Below are positions 4,503 through 24,175 of a stretch of 35,156 bases of DNA, in pieces. The position numbers and the translations under genes were made by a program. The notes under the pieces were generated by a model. The model worked only from the letters and a program-made list of their open reading frames with translations. It had not been told where the DNA came from and did no database searches. Position 1 is the first letter of the stretch. Each line of letters opens with the position of its first letter. Origin of the DNA: Nitrosotalea sp. (GTDB lineage: Archaea > Thermoproteota > Nitrososphaeria > Nitrososphaerales > Nitrosopumilaceae); the NCBI GenBank assembly GCA_025449485.1, contig JANWJG010000014.1, forward strand, positions 1 through 35,156, written 5' to 3'.

Positions 4503-5240
4503 CTAGTGGCAGATTGGGCTTCCATGACAAGAACGATCTGTACCAGCTGTAGCAAATCCTGATACATTAGCTCCAGTAAGATCTGCACCTGCTAAAATAG
4601 TATATGATCCATCAGCAGAATCAAGGTTTGCACCGGATAGATTAGCACCTGTTAGATCTGAAGTGCGCATGTTTACATTTGATAGATCAGCCTTTGAAAA
4701 GTTAGCACCTGCAAAGCTTACTTGTATTGCTCGTACCCATGAAAGGTTGGCTCCTGACAAATCAGCATTTTGAAAATTTGCTATTCCAAATGAAGAGCCT
4801 GCAAGGTTGGCACCTTGTAGATCTGCTCTTGCCAGATTAGCACGGTAAAAATCCATGTTTTGTGCATTAATTCCATTTAGTTTTGCACCTGCCAGATTGA
4901 CATTGTTTAGACTGGCACCTGTGATTTGTGCTCCAACAAGATTTGCACCTGAAAGATTGGTGCCATACAAATTTGCACCCTGCAGGTTTGCACCTGCCAG
5001 ATTGATTCCAGTCAAGTTAAGAAATTCTAAACTGGCACCATGTAAATCGCAATTAGACCAATCTGTATTTGCCGATGGTTTACCAGAACATGATTTTGTT
5101 TGTGTCATGCTAGAATGTGTATAGCTTGAATCTGCATATGCTGCAAGTGTTGATACTGGATTGCTTGACATCATAGTAAATAACAAAACTGATACTGCGC
5201 CAATCCACAGCAATGAGACATTTTTCTTATTTGTTTGCAA
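4503..5240 (-). CDS. Secreted pentapeptide-repeat protein
   Basis: N-terminal signal-like hydrophobic segment, then many A(N/D)LxG pentapeptides (GANLQGANLYGTNLSGANL...). Confidence 0.9.
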   Translation of the reverse strand: MQTNKKNVSLLWIGAVSVLLFTMMSSNPVSTLAAYADSSYTHSSMTQTKSCSGKPSANTDWSNCDLHGASLEFLNLTGINLAGANLQGANLYGTNLSGANLVGAQITGASLNNVNLAGAKLNGINAQNMDFYRANLARADLQGANLAGSSFGIANFQNADLSGANLSWVRAIQVSFAGANFSKADLSNVNMRTSDLTGANLSGANLDSADGSYTILAGADLTGANVSGFATAGTDRSCHGSPICH

Positions 5241-5287
5241 AGCACCAACTGGATCTAATCTTTGTATAAAAGGATGTCTTAAAAAAA

Positions 5288-5330
5288 CGTAAACTACAAA
5301 ATCAGTCTCACAAAGTTATACGTAAACTGC
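5288..5330 (-). repeat. 33-bp-spaced box pair CGTAAACTAC / CGTAAACTGC
   Basis: Boxes at 5288-5297 and 5321-5330. Confidence 0.6.
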
Positions 5331-5446
5331 AAAATTAATTTTTGAATAAATTCTCTAACATGTAAACAATAAATCTATCAGATAAAATCTAATCTGATGT
5401 TACTGTAATTAGAAAATTTATCTAGTAGAATAAATTATACGGTCTG

Positions 5447-6463
5447 ATGGATTATCATCACTTTCATGGAAAAAATATTCCTCACATAGAAATCAATCCA
5501 GATATGAAAATTGATGATCTTGTAGAAATTTATGCAAGCTCAGGTTACAACGCAAGACAGCTTGGAGAAGCTGCAAAATTATTTAGAAAAATGATCGAAG
5601 ATGATGCAACAATATGTCTTACTATTGCAGGTGCCATGACACCAGTTGGATTTGGTGGCCTGTTCAAATCCTTGATTACAAATGGATTTGTAGACTGGAT
5701 AATATCTACTGGTTCTAACCTGTATCACGAAGATCATTTTGCGTGGAACTTGCCTGTGAAGCAAGGACATTTTGAAGTAGATGATATGGTTCTCTACCAA
5801 AAAGATATTGTCAGAATAAGAGATGTCTACATCAAAGGAGAAGAGACACTCAAAGAGCAAGATAGAATTGTATACAAAATGTTTGAAGATAATTTAATTG
5901 AAAAACCATTTACTACAGCAGAATTTGCAAACTGGATGGGCAGGTATTCAAAAGAGCATTCAAAAAATCCAGAAAAAAGTTTTGTTGTTTCTGCATATGA
6001 TTACGATGTTCCTTTGTACATCTCAACTCTGAAAGATTCTTCACTTGCACTTGACTTGGCACCCCTAAGATTGGCTGGCAAGCAATTTCCCCTAGATTTT
6101 GTGAGGGAAATAATTGAACAAGCAGCAATCTTGTACAACTCAAAAAAAGCAGGAATTGTTGAGATAGGTGGGGGTGTTCCTAAAAATACTGCCCAGCAGA
6201 CAGGTCCACTGCTAGACCAGATTCTAGGATTGGGGCACGGCGGACAAAACTATATCATACAAATTACTGATGCAAGACCTGATACAGGAGGTTTGTCTGG
6301 TGCCACACTTCAGGAAGGTAAGAGCTGGGGCAAGGTAAAGGATTCTCATGAAGACGTCATTGTAGTATATGCAGATGCAACCATTGCATTTCCAGTTCTA
6401 TGTCTATATGCATTGAGCATGGAGAGTCCTAGAAAACCAAAACGATTGTACAAAAAGTTGTGA
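5447..6463 (+). CDS. Deoxyhypusine synthase-like protein (bacterial DHSL / homospermidine synthase-like type)
   Basis: ISTGSNLYHEDHF, ITDARPDTGGLSGATLQEGKSWGKV, YADATIAFPVL; catalytic-Lys WGK motif retained. Confidence 0.85.
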   Translation: MDYHHFHGKNIPHIEINPDMKIDDLVEIYASSGYNARQLGEAAKLFRKMIEDDATICLTIAGAMTPVGFGGLFKSLITNGFVDWIISTGSNLYHEDHFAWNLPVKQGHFEVDDMVLYQKDIVRIRDVYIKGEETLKEQDRIVYKMFEDNLIEKPFTTAEFANWMGRYSKEHSKNPEKSFVVSAYDYDVPLYISTLKDSSLALDLAPLRLAGKQFPLDFVREIIEQAAILYNSKKAGIVEIGGGVPKNTAQQTGPLLDQILGLGHGGQNYIIQITDARPDTGGLSGATLQEGKSWGKVKDSHEDVIVVYADATIAFPVLCLYALSMESPRKPKRLYKKL

Positions 6464-6554
6464 AAATATTATGATGAACTGTCTGAAACTTATTTTAACA
6501 AAAAGAAATTAAATCAACCATAAAACAGATTTTTCTATATTTACAAAATTATTT

Positions 6555-7127
6555 TTATAGAATCAAAACTGCAGCAGAAAAAACTGTTGTCCATCTGCCC
6601 TTAGAATCTCCCACTGCACTCTGTGTGATGTTTCTTGTCTTGTATATCTGTCCAGACACCTTCCATTGTTGCCTTTTTTGATCCCAGTTCTTGTCTACAT
6701 CAAATGGTATTCCAATAGATGATGCTAACATCTGAGCTGCAATATCCTCTGCATAATCTCCAGCTTCTTTTTCTGTCTCTCCAAAAGACTGATATTCTGA
6801 TAAATATCCCCACTTTTTCTTGTCAGTTGGCTCTGCCAATCCAACTGATGCAGCCATCAATCTATGTGGTTCATTAGATTGCTGTCGTGCGTAGATTACG
6901 AATTGTACACTACCAGGACGAATCAGCTTTAATCCCTCAGTGCGTGATATTACTTTGGCTCCTGGAGGAAATATGCTTGAAATCAACACCAAATTCGTGT
7001 TTGGTATGCCTGCATCTCGTAGCGCAAATTCAAAACTTGTGAGTTGATCCTGATGTATGCCTTTGCCTCTGGTAAGAAATATTTTTTTTGGAACCAGATC
7101 TAGCATCATCTTCAATCTAGCTAACAT
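6555..7127 (-). CDS. pdaD: Pyruvoyl-dependent arginine decarboxylase
   Basis: LISSIFPPGAKV self-cleavage region and GSVQFVIYARQQSNEPHRLMAASVGLA typical of PvlArgDC. Confidence 0.88.
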   Translation of the reverse strand: MLARLKMMLDLVPKKIFLTRGKGIHQDQLTSFEFALRDAGIPNTNLVLISSIFPPGAKVISRTEGLKLIRPGSVQFVIYARQQSNEPHRLMAASVGLAEPTDKKKWGYLSEYQSFGETEKEAGDYAEDIAAQMLASSIGIPFDVDKNWDQKRQQWKVSGQIYKTRNITQSAVGDSKGRWTTVFSAAVLIL

Positions 7128-9942: not shown

Positions 9943-10824
9943 CTAGCTCTGAATTGTAGGTCCAGTTTTGCTGTACCTGTTAAAATTTCTTAGAATCTCT
10001 GTCAATGATTCTGTCAGAGCTATGATATCAGCAACAGAATCAGCAAGCATTCTGACAATAATGCCTGAATCCCGTGGCAAAGTGGAACAACTAGCCAAAA
10101 GAGGAGTATTTTCTGTAAATGTATTGATTTTATCTACAATGCTTTCTATCTGGATGAGACTGCCAATTATGTACATGCTAGAAAAGACATCTTTTTTGCC
10201 AAATACTGACTCAAGGCTTGCCTTGTCTTTTTGACCAAAACTCATGACATCTGTAAATATGGTCTGACCATTTCTGTGAGCTGTTGTGCGAAGAAAACAA
10301 AGATCGCAGTCAAACTTTTCACCAGATGCAATACGGCCTGCTATTACGATCTCAGAATAAATCAATACTGCATTATCATCTATCTCAAGATCTACTTGTT
10401 GATAAAATCTAGATGATTTGAATGGAATTATCTGGTGTGGAACAAATTCCAGATAACTTTTACTTTTACTGTGTATTCTGATGTATTGTGATGCATAACC
10501 TTCCTCCATCTTGTAAATTTTGGTTGCTGACTGGGTGGTGATTCTTGCCATGGAATTTTTTTCCATTGTGATATCAATTTTCTGTTTGTCTCCTTGTAAT
10601 ATTCCGCCAGACGATGACATGATGTAAATGTGTGCAAAATTAGGATAATCTGATTCTGGATACATTGCTTTTTGAATCAAAAATGGAGCTTTTGATAACA
10701 ATGATTTGATATATGTCTTGGAATCATCATTGTATAATTCAATCTCTATGGTACCATTCTGGCCTGGCATCATGAATTCTTTGTTTGTATAATTTTTGAA
10801 AATGTCAGGAATATGCAGAATCAT
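9943..10824 (-). CDS. ureD: Urease accessory protein UreD/UreH
   Basis: SSSGGILQGDKQKIDITM, TTQSATKIYKM, LEFVPHQIIPF, SFGQ; position in the ure cluster. Confidence 0.93.
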   Translation of the reverse strand: MILHIPDIFKNYTNKEFMMPGQNGTIEIELYNDDSKTYIKSLLSKAPFLIQKAMYPESDYPNFAHIYIMSSSGGILQGDKQKIDITMEKNSMARITTQSATKIYKMEEGYASQYIRIHSKSKSYLEFVPHQIIPFKSSRFYQQVDLEIDDNAVLIYSEIVIAGRIASGEKFDCDLCFLRTTAHRNGQTIFTDVMSFGQKDKASLESVFGKKDVFSSMYIIGSLIQIESIVDKINTFTENTPLLASCSTLPRDSGIIVRMLADSVADIIALTESLTEILRNFNRYSKTGPTIQS

Positions 10825-11489
10825 TTTGTTCTGTCCTTTCTAACTACGGGTTTTTTATCAAACAAGATTGATCTGATTATATCTTCTACAACATCTTCTA
10901 TGCCTTGACCTGTCTGACAGTTGACAAATACATATGGTCTACCACTCCTTATTTTTTCAGCATCTCTTTTCATTATGGATAGATCTGCTCCCACATGTGG
11001 TGCAAGATCAATCTTGTTAATGACAAGCAAGTCACAACTTTCTATCCCCAGTCCACCTTTCCTTGGATACTTGTCTCCTCCTGATACATCGATTATGTAA
11101 ATGAAATAATCTGCAAGGGCAGGACTAAAGGTAGTCATGACATTGTCTCCCCCGCTCTCAATGATTATCAAATCCAAGCTCGGGTCTTTTTTTTCTATTT
11201 CGTCAATTACGGCTAGATTGATTGTTGGATCTTCTCGTATGGCAGTGTGTGGACAACCACCTGTTGCTATTCCAATTATCATGTTTTCAGGCATGACTTT
11301 GAGCTCTGTAGACAAAATTCGCTGCATCCTTTGGGCGTCTTCTTTTGATATGACATCATTTGATATTATGCAGCACCGGTATCCCCTTTCTATCAAGACA
11401 GGTACAACTCTCTCAATGAGGCGCGTTTTTCCAGATCCTACCGGTCCACCAATTCCAATTTTTGGTATCTTTTTATTTTTCAAAACCAT
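10821..11489 (-). CDS. ureG: Urease accessory GTPase UreG
   Basis: GIGGPVGSGKTRLIE P-loop, GIATGGCPHTAIREDPTIN, ESGGDN, NKIDLAPHVGADL. Confidence 0.97.
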   Translation of the reverse strand: MVLKNKKIPKIGIGGPVGSGKTRLIERVVPVLIERGYRCCIISNDVISKEDAQRMQRILSTELKVMPENMIIGIATGGCPHTAIREDPTINLAVIDEIEKKDPSLDLIIIESGGDNVMTTFSPALADYFIYIIDVSGGDKYPRKGGLGIESCDLLVINKIDLAPHVGADLSIMKRDAEKIRSGRPYVFVNCQTGQGIEDVVEDIIRSILFDKKPVVRKDRTK

Positions 11490-11503
11490 TATTTTTCTCC
11501 AAT

Positions 11504-12217
11504 TTATGTGATGAACATCTTTGAGCTTTCATGCTCATGAATCATTTGAAAAATATCTGTCATAGGAGTTAGCTGCCAAATATTGTTCAATGATTCTCTT
11601 TTGTTGTTCTTTGCAATGAAATTGATCTTATCTGAAAGCAGTGCAAGAATTTTTTGGCCACTGATGTGTTCTGTTATTCCAAGCTTGATCGCTGCCGCTA
11701 CTACATTTTGACTAAATGAATAAAGCATCATCCTCATACCGCTCTCTTCCGGAATTCCAAGAAATTCTGCAGCTATGCCAAGACAAACAGGATATGTCCC
11801 AACAGCTTGACCCGTTTCTATCTTTGTCTGAAATTCTTTTGCAAACTTGTTTTTCTGCTTCGATGTAATTTGGGTTATGCAATTGAGTATCTGCGAGCCA
11901 GATCTCACAGACGTATTTCTTACTTCTTTTATCAATCTCATGGAATAGAATAGATTGTCTGCTTCCACAAGTTCTTTGATGTTGTTATTTTTTGCAGCAT
12001 TCATGGCAGTCAAGAAAATTATGCAGTCGCAGGGAACTAGTTGAAACTCTATTTGTTGTGAAATGAAATTTAAAACATCTTCTTCATTTTTAATCATACC
12101 GTGTCTTGCAAGAGACTCTAAACCATTTGATAACCCAAACATTCCTGAGGGAAAAAAGGAATCTGACAGCTGCATTAAAAAAAACTCATGGTCAGTGTTC
12201 ATGCATATATGTTCCAT
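11504..12217 (-). CDS. ureF: Urease accessory protein UreF
   Basis: LMQLSDSFFPSGMFGLSNGLESL; conserved order E-F-G-D. Start may be the internal ATG at 12202. Confidence 0.93.
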   Translation of the reverse strand: MEHICMNTDHEFFLMQLSDSFFPSGMFGLSNGLESLARHGMIKNEEDVLNFISQQIEFQLVPCDCIIFLTAMNAAKNNNIKELVEADNLFYSMRLIKEVRNTSVRSGSQILNCITQITSKQKNKFAKEFQTKIETGQAVGTYPVCLGIAAEFLGIPEESGMRMMLYSFSQNVVAAAIKLGITEHISGQKILALLSDKINFIAKNNKRESLNNIWQLTPMTDIFQMIHEHESSKMFIT

Positions 12218-12692
12218 GTCGAGGTTGAAAAATCTGTTCTTCTGTATAGAACTCTAGATCCTTTCTCACATTCAGTAACAATTTTTCAAACGTCTCAGCC
12301 TCTAAATCTGTATGGATGGGAAATGAAAGAGTGTCATCTTTTATCACTATTGGTTTATGCCTATTTCCTATTACGTGGCCCAAAGTAATCAATTCAAAGG
12401 GATTTTTCTGTAATTTTTTTATCTTTACAGAGAGCACTTTTTCAGGTAATTGTTCCACAATGATGAATTTTTTGAGATTTGACACGATAACATCACCATG
12501 ATGCAATTCCGAGTCCATAATGAGCCCTATGTCTGTACCAAGATCGGTTTTCTTTCTTATTCTGCCTCTTTCCAGCTCTTGGCGTGGGATCTTGAGCTTC
12601 TCGCAGCTCTTTTTTGATTCCATTTGTTTAAATCGAGTCATCAATTTCTTGTCGTCAAAAATATTTCCAATCACTGATGTTATGGTAAGCAT
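12192..12692 (-). CDS. ureE: Urease accessory nickel chaperone UreE
   Basis: LGHVIGNRHKPIVI (conserved His), short C-terminal HGTYMHEH. Confidence 0.92.
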   Translation of the reverse strand: MLTITSVIGNIFDDKKLMTRFKQMESKKSCEKLKIPRQELERGRIRKKTDLGTDIGLIMDSELHHGDVIVSNLKKFIIVEQLPEKVLSVKIKKLQKNPFELITLGHVIGNRHKPIVIKDDTLSFPIHTDLEAETFEKLLLNVRKDLEFYTEEQIFQPRHGTYMHEH

Positions 12693-12782
12693 GATGATCT
12701 GAGTTATTCTATGAAATTATATTTTTTGATCTTAGTAATTTATTATAAATAATAAATACAAGAACCTACAATAGGTACAGAT
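12693..12782. promoter_or_regulatory. Divergent ureE / ureA promoter region
   Basis: 90-bp AT-rich gap between divergent starts with TATA-like tttattataaataata. Confidence 0.5.
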
Positions 12783-13085
12783 ATGATGCTTAATCCACGA
12801 GAAATTGATAAACTCTATATTTTTATGGCAGCTGAAGTTGCAAGGAAAAGAAAAGCAAGAGGATTGAAGCTCAATTATGTCGAATCAGTTGCATTGTTAG
12901 CAGATCATATAGTAGAAGGGGCTAGGGATGGAAAGTCTGTTTCTGAGCTGATGAGTTCTGGAAGAAAAGTCTTGACAAGAGATGATGTATTGCCAGGTGT
13001 ACCAGAATTAATCAAGACAGTACAAACTGAGGCAACCTTTGAAGACGGAACTAAACTTGTCACTGTACATGATCCAATAGTGTAA
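12783..13085 (+). CDS. ureA: Urease subunit gamma
   Basis: [48 protein letters not shown]. Confidence 0.97.
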
Positions 13086-13089
13086 TGCA

Positions 13090-13461
13090 ATGATTCCAGG
13101 AGAATATTTCCTAAATGATATGCCAATTATTGCAAATAAAGGCAAGAAAACAGTAAAGGTCAAAGTAAGCAACTCTGGAGATAGGCCAATACAGGTGGGT
13201 TCTCATACACATTTCTTTGAGACTAACAAGGCCCTTGTTTTTTCTCGCCAGAAATCTTATGGTTGTCATCTCAATATTCCATCAGGCACATCGGTGCGAT
13301 TTGAACCAGGGGATACAAAGGAAATAGAACTGACAGAATTTGGGGGGTTGAAGATAGTTTATGGGTTTAATGGACTTGTCAATGGCAAGCTCAGTACCAG
13401 AAAACAAATTGCACTCAAGAAAGCAAGAAAAAAAGGATTCAAGGATAGTGATAAGACATGA
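13090..13461 (+). CDS. ureB: Urease subunit beta
   Basis: [13 protein letters not shown]...[24 protein letters not shown]...[11 protein letters not shown]. Confidence 0.97.
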
Positions 13462-15170
13462 CACTGGTAATTCCTAGAAAACAATACGTGGATCTCTATG
13501 GACCTACAAAGGGTGATAAGATCAGACTTGCTGATACTGATCTTATAATTGAGATTGAAAAAGATTTTCAGAATTATGGTGATGAGATAGTTTTTGGTGG
13601 TGGCAAAAGTGCAAGAGATGGAATGGGACAAGCAAGTGGTGTCATCAGTAAAAATTCTCCAGATCTTGTCATAACAAACGCAATTATTCTTGATCCAGTT
13701 CTTGGTATTGTCAAGGCTGACATTGGCATCAAAAATGGGTTGATATCTGGAATAGGAAAAGCAGGCAATCCAAATGTTATGGACAAAATAGATATGATCA
13801 TATCTGCAAATACTGAGATAATTGCAGGTGAGCATACCATATGCACCCCTGGAATAATTGATACTCATATTCACTTTATTGCACCCCAGCAGGCAATAGA
13901 CGCAATTTGTAGCGGCACCACTACCATGATTGGAGGTGGAACAGGACCTGCTGATGGTACCAAGGCAACTACATGCACTCCTGGTCCTTGGAACATTCAC
14001 AGAATGCTTGAAGCACTTGATGAACTACCCCTAAATTTTGGCCTGCTTGGAAAAGGAAATGATTCACTAGAGCCTGCATTAATGGAACAAATTGCTGCAG
14101 GAGCTTGCGGCTTGAAACTGCATGAGGATTGGGGTACAACTCCTGCAACCATAGATGCAGCATTAAAAGTTGCAGATAAAACTGACACTCAGGTGGCTAT
14201 CCACACAGATACGCTAAACGAGTGTGGCTTTGTTGATGATACGATAGACGCAATAGGTGGGAGAACAATTCACACCTATCACACTGAAGGTGCAGGTGGA
14301 GGACATGCTCCAGATATCATGAAAATAGCAGGTAACAAGAATATTCTTCCTTCCTCTACAAATCCCACAAGACCATTTACAGTCAACACTCTTGATGAAC
14401 ACCTAGACATGATGATGGTGTGTCATCATCTGAATTCTTCTGTAAGAGAGGATGTAGCATTTGCAGAGTCAAGAATCAGAGGAGAAACAATAGCTGCAGA
14501 AGATGTCTTGCATGACATTGGTGCGCTGAGTATGTATTCTTCTGATAGTCAGGCAATGGGTAGAGTTGGAGAAGTAGGACTCAGAGCATGGCAAACAGCA
14601 GATAAAATGAAAAAAATGTCTGGTCGATTGCCCGATGAAATAGGAGATAATGATAATCTTCGTGTAAAAAGATATCTTGCAAAACTTACAATCAATCCTG
14701 CCATAACACATGGAGTCTCTTATCATGTTGGTTCTCTTGAGCCTGGCAAGTTAGCTGATATTGTAATGTGGTCTCCAGAATTTTTTGGTGTAAAACCAAA
14801 ACTTGTGATAAAAGGAGGTTTCATTGCTTATTCCTTGATGGGAGATCCAAACGCATCAATTCCAACACCAGAGCCAGTCTACTATAGACCAATGTTTGGT
14901 GCAATGGGAAAAGCAAATTATTCTACTTCCGTAACTTTTACTTCAAAACTTGCAATACGAAATGGTCTTGCAAAAAAATTAGGTCTAAAAAAGAAATTAC
15001 TTGCAGTCAAAAACTGTAGAAACATTGGCAAGAAAAATATGCTTTACAACAACGCTACTCCAAAAATAGAGATTGATCCTGAAACATACAAAGTCAAAGT
15101 TGATGGAAAAATAGCTACAACAGAACCGGCACAAAAATTATCCATGGCACGATTGTATCATTTATTCTAG
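13458..15170 (+). CDS. ureC: Urease subunit alpha
   Basis: [39 protein letters not shown] (carbamylated Lys), [23 protein letters not shown]. Confidence 0.98.
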
Positions 15171-20918: not shown

Positions 20919-22043
20919 GTGATTAATATGGGTGCAGAATTTTATGGAGAATCATACCGGGGCAATGACGAACCAATTTTTGTGGGCATTCCTACGTTCT
21001 TGAAATTGCCTTTGCTTAAAAATAAGGCAGAACTGGAAAAAGTGCGTCCAGATGTTGCCATAATAGGTGAACCTTTTGATTTTGGGACAACTATTAGACC
21101 AGGTGCCAGATATGGACCTAGAGCTATAAGAGCAGCTTCAACAGTACCATCTCCTCCGTACGAGCACTTCAACATTGAAACAGGTGTTGATCCATTTGGA
21201 GTTTTTAAAACAGTTGATTATGGAGATGTGAATATTGTACCAGGCGATGTGGTAGAATCCCACAGAAGAATGACTGACAAGGTTAAAGAAGTGTTAGATA
21301 TTGACGGCATTCCTGTCATGCTTGGTGGTGATCATTCCATCACTTTTGCAAATGTACGAGCCTTTGCAAAGAAATACAAGAACATAGGAATGATTCACAT
21401 TGATACGCATGCTGACTGTGCACCACAGGGTTTGTGTGGTTTCAAGTATGATCATGGGGCTCACATTAGAAGAATAATGGAATTAGGATGTCTAAAAGGA
21501 AAGAATTACACCCTAATTGGACCTCGTGGATACTGGCCAGGTCCAGATCTATACAAGTGGATGGCAGATCAAGACTTTCAATGGTTCACTATGCTTGATG
21601 TAGAAGAGTTAGGCATAGATAGAATTGCCAAAGAGGCAGCAGACAGAGCTAATGACAATGTCGATGCAGTGTACATTAGTTGGGACATTGATACATTTGA
21701 CCCAGCATATGCTCCAGGAACTGGAGAGCCAGAACCAAACGGACTCACCTCCAGAGAAGGAATGAGACTGATGAGATTACTTTCATCCTCGTTTGATCCC
21801 GACAAGTTTGCTTTTGACTTGGTCGAAGTAGCCCCCAACTATGATGTCAGTGATGGTAATTCGTATAGTGGCGGAATCACTTCAGGTCTTGCAAACCGCT
21901 TGATAGTAGAGCTCTTAGCAGGACTATCACTCACAAAGAAAGGAGAGACTGAAGGTAGACCAGTAAGACCAAAATCTTATCGTGGTACAGGGAACACATA
22001 CAGCTTTGGTAAACCTAAAGCCCAGATTCCGAAAAGGAATTGA
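20919..22043 (+). CDS. Arginase/agmatinase-family ureohydrolase (agmatinase, guanidinobutyrase or guanidinase)
   Basis: GVP/GIPTFLKLP, DFGTTIRPGARYGPRAIR, MLGGDHSITF, HIDTHADC, SWDIDTFDPAYAPGTGEPEPNG: all metal-ligand motifs of the family. Confidence 0.93.
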   Translation: MINMGAEFYGESYRGNDEPIFVGIPTFLKLPLLKNKAELEKVRPDVAIIGEPFDFGTTIRPGARYGPRAIRAASTVPSPPYEHFNIETGVDPFGVFKTVDYGDVNIVPGDVVESHRRMTDKVKEVLDIDGIPVMLGGDHSITFANVRAFAKKYKNIGMIHIDTHADCAPQGLCGFKYDHGAHIRRIMELGCLKGKNYTLIGPRGYWPGPDLYKWMADQDFQWFTMLDVEELGIDRIAKEAADRANDNVDAVYISWDIDTFDPAYAPGTGEPEPNGLTSREGMRLMRLLSSSFDPDKFAFDLVEVAPNYDVSDGNSYSGGITSGLANRLIVELLAGLSLTKKGETEGRPVRPKSYRGTGNTYSFGKPKAQIPKRN

Positions 22044-22462
22044 TTAGAATCGAGGTCTTGATAGAGGGAGAGCCAGACATTCTTCCCTCTATCAAACTCT
22101 TTGAATTCAAAGATGAGGATGAGGCAATTTTTCTCAATGTCATAGAAATGGTCAAAGACAAACTCTCAAGAAATTTGAGGCTAAACACTCATGAAACTCT
22201 ACATGTATTTTGTGCATATGTTGTTAGTGAAATTCGTTCAGGAAAATCAGAATCGCAAATCATAGATAACTCATCAAAAATTTTAACAAGAGACAATGTT
22301 TTGTTCGGGGTACCAGAAACCTTAAGACAAATTACGTTCAATATTACCGTAGATAATTTGCCAAAAAAGATAATCCAATTTATTGAACCAATTCCAACTA
22401 TGAATTACGTAATGGCAGATCCCAGAGCAGTTGTGGTAACCAATTGTGAGAAACAGAAATAA
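22040..22462 (+). CDS. Orphan UreA-like (urease gamma fold) protein
   Basis: RNLRLNTHETLHVFCAYVVSEIRSGKSESQIIDNSSKILTRDNVLFGVPETLRQ aligns along its length with UreA of this window; TTG start overlaps the upstream stop (TTGA). Confidence 0.85.
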   Translation: MIRIEVLIEGEPDILPSIKLFEFKDEDEAIFLNVIEMVKDKLSRNLRLNTHETLHVFCAYVVSEIRSGKSESQIIDNSSKILTRDNVLFGVPETLRQITFNITVDNLPKKIIQFIEPIPTMNYVMADPRAVVVTNCEKQK

Positions 22463-22762: not shown

Positions 22763-23206
22763 ATGAAGAAAAAACAAAGATCATCTCATGATGACGAGAG
22801 AAATGTCATGAGAATAAGTATGTCCTTATCAGCCAAACTTTTGGCTGAATTTGATCGTGCGATGAAAAAAGCAGGATATTCTGATAGATCAAAGGCAATA
22901 CAGACTGCCCTGCATTCATTTGTAGATGAATATGGATGGAAGGGAAATGATAATCATGAAGGGGCAGGTGCAATAGTTTTGTTGTATGACAATCATACGT
23001 ATAACCATGACTCTGAATCTACAGAATCGCAGCATGACTATACCGACATTATCAGTGCTGTAACGCATACCCATCTTGATCATGAAAATTGTCTGGAAAC
23101 AATAATGGTCAAGGGAGAAATAGGAAGGATAAAAGAACTGGCTAGAAAAATTTCAAAGAATCGTGGAATCAAAAGTTTGAAGATCAATTTCGTAACTATG
23201 GTCTAG
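22763..23206 (+). CDS. nikR: Nickel-responsive regulator NikR
   Basis: RHH N-terminus (VMRISMSLSAKLLAEFDRAMKKAGYSDRSKAIQTAL) plus THTHLDHENCLETI; H-(10)-H-x-H-(5)-C spacing of the four Ni ligands conserved. Confidence 0.93.
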   Translation: MKKKQRSSHDDERNVMRISMSLSAKLLAEFDRAMKKAGYSDRSKAIQTALHSFVDEYGWKGNDNHEGAGAIVLLYDNHTYNHDSESTESQHDYTDIISAVTHTHLDHENCLETIMVKGEIGRIKELARKISKNRGIKSLKINFVTMV

Positions 23207-23258: not shown

Positions 23259-23314
23259 ATTTTTTACATCATATTTTTATAGAAATATTATTTACTAAAT
23301 CCGTGCTTTGTTTG

Positions 23315-23342
23315 GTATTACTTTTTAAGAATTTTGTAATAC
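23315..23342. promoter_or_regulatory. Putative NikR operator
   Basis: Perfect inverted repeat GTATTAC-N14-GTAATAC, equivalently GTATTA-N16-TAATAC, between nikR and the nickel permease. Confidence 0.55.
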
Positions 23343-23365
23343 TATGTAACAAGGAGGTTTCTTAG

Positions 23366-24175
23366 ATGGCAGACGCCTGGTCTTTTATCTTGGTGTCAAT
23401 ACCTGTGATGATACTGTTTGGAATACGTCATGGATTAGACGTTGATCATATTACTGCAATTGATAATCTTGTTAGGTTACACAATGCCACAAAAAAATCA
23501 AGACTAGTAGGGGCGGGATTCAGTTCTGGCCACATGATGTCCGTTCTTGCCGAAATGATTTTCATCATATATGTAGTTGGCAGCATTACTAGCACAGGCA
23601 ACCTACAGTTTTGGGGAGGCATCACAGGTGCAATAGCACTAGGTACAATTGGTGCAGTCAACATCTATGCAATGAAAAAATGGGGCAAGAGCGGTTCTGC
23701 AATACTTGCAAGCAAGGTACTCAACAGAGTTGGAATACTTGGTCCAGTAGGCTCTTCTTTTGTAACAGGCATGGTATTTGGCCTGGGCTTTGATACTGCG
23801 ACACAAATTTCTGCAATTACAATATCTGCAGTGGCATCAGCTACTACAGGAATCCAGACAGCACTGATTCTCTCAGGATTCTTTGCACTTGGCATGATCC
23901 CAGTGGATACACTAGACAGTGTCATGATACGCTCTGCATTCTCTAGAATATTTGACACCAAGGGTTTCCGGTACATGACATATGGATTGAGTGGAGTTGC
24001 ACTCTTTGTTGCCGCATTTGAATCATATTCAACAATAACTGGTAACAACATACTTTCACCGTTAGCAGGTCCAGTCTTGGCAGGTTCCATACTTGCGATA
24101 TCATTTGGATATGCATTTGCAACAAGAAAGAAAAAATTGCAGCGTCATACTGAAAGCTCTAAAGAAAAACTCTAG
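23366..24175 (+). CDS. Nickel/cobalt permease, NiCoT (HoxN/NixA) family
   Basis: RHGLDVDHITAIDNLVR signature, VFGLGFDTATQISAI, GMIPVDTLDSVMIRSAF; strong SD aaggaggt upstream. Confidence 0.95.
   Translation: MADAWSFILVSIPVMILFGIRHGLDVDHITAIDNLVRLHNATKKSRLVGAGFSSGHMMSVLAEMIFIIYVVGSITSTGNLQFWGGITGAIALGTIGAVNIYAMKKWGKSGSAILASKVLNRVGILGPVGSSFVTGMVFGLGFDTATQISAITISAVASATTGIQTALILSGFFALGMIPVDTLDSVMIRSAFSRIFDTKGFRYMTYGLSGVALFVAAFESYSTITGNNILSPLAGPVLAGSILAISFGYAFATRKKKLQRHTESSKEKL

Follow-up and report, generated by a model that had tools for sequence, protein, structure and literature searches.

A predicted NikR operator between nikR and a nickel permease gene of Nitrosotalea, and its recurrence at metal importers of ammonia-oxidising archaea

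The NikR operator of nikABCDE in Escherichia coli is GTATGA-N16-TCATAC (PMC7055735), and the site, as read from MG1655, is GTATGACGAATACTTAAAATCGTCATAC. For delta-proteobacteria, a NikR signal of the form GTGTTAC-[N13/14]-GTAACAC has been predicted upstream of nickel transporters (Rodionov et al. 2004, PMC545781). The literature searched, which was covered in part, yielded no NikR operator for ammonia-oxidising archaea (a 2006 comparison of nickel/cobalt transporters may describe archaeal ones) and no operator sequence for the NikR protein of Pyrococcus horikoshii.

Here we analyse a stretch of 35,156 nucleotides from Nitrosotalea sp. (contig JANWJG010000014.1), henceforth the window, in which nikR is followed by the gene of a NiCoT/NicO-family permease and the intergenic DNA between them contains the dyad GTATTACTTTTTAAGAATTTTGTAATAC (Table 1). 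According to a preliminary description of this DNA, a perfect inverted repeat lies upstream of the nickel permease gene, downstream of a TATA-like element and just before the Shine-Dalgarno sequence, and all these elements were confirmed. The 6-16-6 geometry it assigned to the repeat refers to the same site with shorter arms: the perfect arms comprise 7 bp and enclose a spacer of 14 bp, i.e. the layout is 7-14-7. The dyad thus has the length (27-28 bp), the arms (7 bp) and the spacer (N13 or N14) characteristic of NikR operators, its half-site is one base away from both GTATGAC and GTGTTAC, and it lies in a promoter that serves a predicted nickel importer and co-occurs with nikR, the exceptions being three genomes (G079, G097 and G157) discussed below. 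Comparison of this locus with its counterparts elsewhere indicates that the dyad is very probably the operator of the adjacent NikR, and that Ni-NikR would repress the NiCoT permease gene by binding just downstream of the transcription start.

Table 1. Features of the nikR-NiCoT locus and of related loci. Positions are those of the window, except in the last row, which lists loci of other genomes.
Feature	Position	Strand	Remarks
Predicted NikR operator, 28-bp dyad GTATTAC-N14-GTAATAC	23315..23342		Motif and spacing kept at importers linked to nikR
Left half-site GTATTAC	23315..23321	+	
Right half-site (GTAATAC on +)	23336..23342	-	
Off-centre AA of the spacer (positions 16-17)	23330..23331	+	Conserved across aligned operators
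TATA box TTTTTATA of the NiCoT promoter	23274..23281	+	Exact copies in 10/27 aligned promoters
Expected transcription start	23302..23308	+	Inferred from the usual archaeal TATA-to-start distance
Shine-Dalgarno sequence AAGGAGG	23351..23357	+	
nikR, Ni-responsive ribbon-helix-helix regulator, 147 aa, presumed binder	22763..23206	+	PF08753, NF002169, 2bj1
NiCoT/NicO-family permease, 269 aa, presumed target	23366..24175	+	PF03824
Urease gene cluster, likely nickel consumer	9943..15170	ureDGFE on -, ureABC on +	ORFs read by eye
Dyad-bearing ZnuA-type operons	L136:120-2763, L141:2243-4910, L135, L137, L140, L206		

The identity of the presumed binder rests on matches of the nikR product to the C-terminal nickel-binding domain PF08753 (E 7.5e-26, 90.6 bits, cut-off 22) and to NF002169 (127.2 bits, cut-off 111), as well as on its similarity over nearly the whole length to P. 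horikoshii NikR, its closest solved relative (2bj1, E 3.7e-23). The Pfam search gave no separate match to the N-terminal ribbon-helix-helix domain; alignments with the P. horikoshii and Helicobacter pylori NikR proteins begin at residues 12-15 and cover the whole of this domain. The H-H-H-C nickel ligands, which the preliminary description regarded as retained, are H91, H102, H104 and C110, and an alignment of 15 NikR proteins shows no variation at them. Their spacing of 11-2-6 is that of the E. coli protein, in which the ligands are H76, H87, H89 and C95. The permease belongs to PF03824 (E 1e-19, 71.4 bits, cut-off 27.7), its scores lying under the stricter NCBIfam cut-offs of TIGR00802 and NF052500. 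The signature of NiCoT permeases is HX4DH in transmembrane segment II, and the translation carries HGLDVDH, in agreement with it. The ureC gene of the window has orthologues in relatives. Between the urease cluster and nikR, positions 20919-22462 encode an arginase-family ureohydrolase, whose closest solved relatives are the guanidinobutyrase 3nio and the agmatinase-2 entries 7esr, 7oi1 and 9fek, and, after it, a UreA-like protein of 140 aa that stands alone. This pair is kept near nikR in two other genomes (G403 and G136), and it is conceivable that a second nickel enzyme is encoded here.

The arrangement of the promoter allows for a mechanism to be proposed. The exact copies of the TATA box, which come from both Nitrosopumilaceae and Nitrososphaeraceae (with both copies of G121 counted among the 27 promoters), lie 30-34 bp before the dyad, or 27 bp in G157, and the promoter of G132 has TTTTTATC in this position. 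As the start is expected at the usual distance from the TATA box, the dyad would be located downstream of it and span about +10 to +38 of the NiCoT transcript. The two GTATTAC half-sites, separated by two turns of the helix, may each be occupied by one ribbon-helix-helix dimer of a Ni(II)-loaded NikR tetramer, which would then sit just downstream of the start and block initiation or promoter escape. Under nickel shortage, NikR would be released, the permease would be made and urease would be supplied. The dependence on nickel and a repressing, not an activating, role of NikR are inferred here, as is where the site lies relative to the start. In promoters of CbiM genes the TATA box precedes the dyad by 0-6 bp, and at either distance a bound NikR could repress by occluding initiation or the escape from the promoter.

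The motif and its spacing recur well beyond the window. The nearest relative with the locus, a Nitrosopumilales MAG (G403, locus L207, JANXYF010000229), keeps the order nikR-dyad-NiCoT, and so does G136, a member of another family. We gathered 80 archaeal and bacterial nikR loci by protein similarity alone, counted the near-perfect GTRTTAC dyads in them for each spacer of 10-18 nt and found 18 with N14, 7 with N13, one with N11 and none with any other spacer, while the reversed control gave a single dyad over all spacers. Among 400 Nitrososphaeria genomes, 22 contain exact copies of GTRTTAC-N14-GTAAYAC, 23 sites in total, which is about as many as in the reversed controls and hence no genome-wide enrichment; the signal is therefore the location of the sites rather than their number, with 20 of the 23 situated at nikR, NiCoT, a ZnuA-type ABC operon, CbiM, or a pair of FmdE and binding-protein genes. 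Three exact sites (in G347, G015 and G210), which adjoin unrelated or unidentified genes, were taken as chance occurrences. The spacer is conserved in part as well: when the operators are oriented towards their genes, A16 is found in 27 of 29 (a count of 25 was reached in none of 5000 shuffles) and A17 in 22 of 29. The off-centre A16 thus has a fixed polarity toward the target gene, for which a symmetric contact gives no explanation.

If the dyad is the site of NikR, it should follow the regulator, and we called it present at 12 or more of the 14 arm matches, with 13 as a stricter threshold. It was found in ZnuA-type promoters of 13 of the 16 genomes with the window-type NikR vs 0 of 9 without it (p=1e-4), in NiCoT promoters of Nitrososphaeraceae in 8 of 16 vs 1 of 11 (p 0.03), and in NiCoT promoters of the window's own family in 2 of 2 vs 3 of 29 (p 0.02), all these p values being optimistic because the genomes are related. 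One or two of the 12/14 matches in the ZnuA-type promoters may be due to chance, and at the threshold of 13 the numbers become 11 of 16 vs 0 of 9. Two observations count against the operator reading: in Nitrososphaeraceae genomes with NikR, half of the NiCoT promoters do not reach 12/14, and a perfect dyad is present without the window-type NikR in G079, G097 and G157, which belong to the same genus as the window. The lone exception in Nitrososphaeraceae among the genomes without NikR, G185, shows before its dyad what appears to be the terminal part of a nikR with a frameshift. For NiCoT promoters of the window's family, an association of the dyad with urease was also seen, since it was found in 5 of 8 urease-bearing and in 0 of 11 urease-negative genomes (p 0.005). 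Poor conservation of the dyad at loci where NikR is conserved, which the preliminary description had named as grounds for abandoning its proposal, was looked for, and the dyad was found to recur with NikR and at the same spacing; likewise, the search for the pattern upstream of NiCoT genes in related archaea returned it at nikR-linked metal importers. The predicted NikR operator is therefore supported by its presence at these importers, by its following NikR, and by its resemblance to the E. coli and delta-proteobacterial operators.

Within its own genome the site is singular. In the 1.49-Mb assembly (G000) it is the sole exact copy of the motif and the sole match with fewer than two mismatches, and 10 of the 11 places with two mismatches are inside an ORF. 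No further site was found before nikR itself, where the best match reaches 9/14, or in the urease cluster. Because the two-mismatch places are almost all in ORFs and neither nikR nor the urease cluster has a site, the predicted NikR regulon in this 85%-complete assembly would consist of one promoter.

A repeat of this kind could in principle be a chance product of AT-rich intergenic DNA, since some 7-bp perfect dyad with a spacer of 8-20 nt arises in 17.7% of the dinucleotide shuffles of the 159-bp intergenic region, which makes symmetry alone weak evidence. However, a match to the motif itself with at most two mismatches appeared in only 4 of 3000 shuffles, and promoters in equivalent positions show the same sequence and spacing in different genera, families and domains, while the controls yield almost none, so that the chance origin is already contradicted by the comparative data and its probability is negligible. 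The preliminary description also considered that the repeat might act as RNA, which could take the form of a leader hairpin masking the Shine-Dalgarno sequence or of an attenuator. In the window leader the arms indeed extend into a longer helix that reaches the Shine-Dalgarno sequence (-14.8 kcal/mol, z -1.9), and one leader of a relative (G079b) reaches z -4.0; most related leaders, however, have z between -2 and 0, and the hairpin is therefore not shared. Among the aligned sites, the 16 changed arm pairs comprised 10 broken ones, 5 G-U pairs and only 1 compensated pair, so that compensatory changes do not support a cis-regulatory RNA hairpin; it is the arm sequence itself that is conserved. 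Moreover, the dyad of the CbiM promoters abuts the TATA box and lies upstream of or at the transcript start. Thus the hairpin is disfavoured, and we regard a role of the repeat as RNA as very improbable.

A slightly more serious alternative, though still an improbable one, is that the dyad is bound by another regulator, such as the second NikR-family protein NikR2, and that its link to the NikR of the window is indirect. NikR2 has 137 aa; in the genome of the window its locus is L127 (contig C35, positions 4800-7000), further loci examined being L101-L126, and in most of these archaea its gene is divergent from that of a ZnuA paralogue. Three genomes of the same genus have a perfect dyad before NiCoT and no window-type NikR (L129:1794-1821, L051:1433-1460 and L130:3443-3664); among them only G157 shows a relic of nikR, 28 residues adjoining the dyad, while G079 (one contig) and G097 have NikR2 only. 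NikR2 keeps the His and Cys residues of the metal site, with a loop two residues longer. Nonetheless, the Arg that NikR has in front of the conserved S-x-S of its DNA-contacting strand is missing from NikR2, and NikR2 is nearly universal in these archaea, while the dyad follows the window-type NikR instead. Since NikR2 is paired with another ZnuA and its upstream region has a conserved dyad of another kind, TTATTAA-N15-TTAATAA, binding of NikR2 to the window dyad is unlikely, although NikR2 could explain the orphan sites.

The predicted NikR operator can also be used as a tag that tells which of the look-alike metal importers carries nickel. In NiCoT-lacking relatives of the window genome the dyad precedes an ABC operon of the ZnuA/TroA type (PF01297, an ABC ATPase and PF00950; Table 1), none of which is present at the window locus. 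In many genomes these operons adjoin nikR or have ureC at a distance of no more than about 7 kb, and the dyad is usual in front of them where NikR is present. Among the 41 genomes of Nitrososphaeraceae, 20 have NiCoT only, 18 the ZnuA-type system only, none both and 3 neither (p 7e-9), and this mutual exclusion suggests that the ZnuA-type system imports nickel. Known members of the ZnuA/TroA type are annotated for Zn, Mn or Fe, whereas the archaeal group has two of the metal ligands changed: all 25 binding proteins have His, His, Ser and His/Asn at the positions of His, His, Glu and Asp in the Mn-binding homologue 5hx7, and a Glu that follows the substituted Ser may still reach the metal. We therefore lean towards the prediction that in ammonia-oxidising archaea without NiCoT a ZnuA/TroA-type ABC importer, under the control of NikR via GTATTAC-N14-GTAATAC, would be the nickel importer that feeds urease; no such claim was found in the part of the literature that was searched. 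In addition, a perfect dyad in G278 precedes a gene of the FmdE family and one for a periplasmic binding protein of PF01497 (L143:2273-4156), which makes this system another candidate for nickel uptake.

The use of urea by ammonia-oxidising archaea is of importance for nitrification, and these results provide for them a concrete predicted circuit of nickel control with a testable operator. The operator of the window follows a known type of switch, and the replacement of the importer is the more interesting outcome: the tag predicts that in lineages without NiCoT its place has been taken by an ABC system of the zinc type.

Among the described systems, the nik operator of E. coli has the same layout as the window site. 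Both are 28 bp long with the 7-14-7 arrangement, 12 of the 14 arm bases are identical, in accordance with the similarity of half-sites noted in the preliminary description, and the spacer of both contains A16A17, oriented alike with respect to the target; to these likenesses may be added the location of the E. coli site, 38 bp before the nikA start. They differ in the half-site (GTATGAC in E. coli, GTATTAC in the window), in the target (NikABCDE and the NiCoT permease, respectively), and in that the window site belongs to an archaeal TATA promoter, in which it follows the expected start. In delta-proteobacteria, the predicted signal is likewise an inverted repeat of 27-28 bp before nickel transporters, but the third base of its half-site is G where the window has A, N13 occurs besides N14, and its targets are nikMQO rather than NiCoT. 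As far as can be judged from sequence comparison, the code of the NikR operators, known and predicted, appears to be almost the same in bacteria and archaea, although the two domains differ in their promoter machinery.
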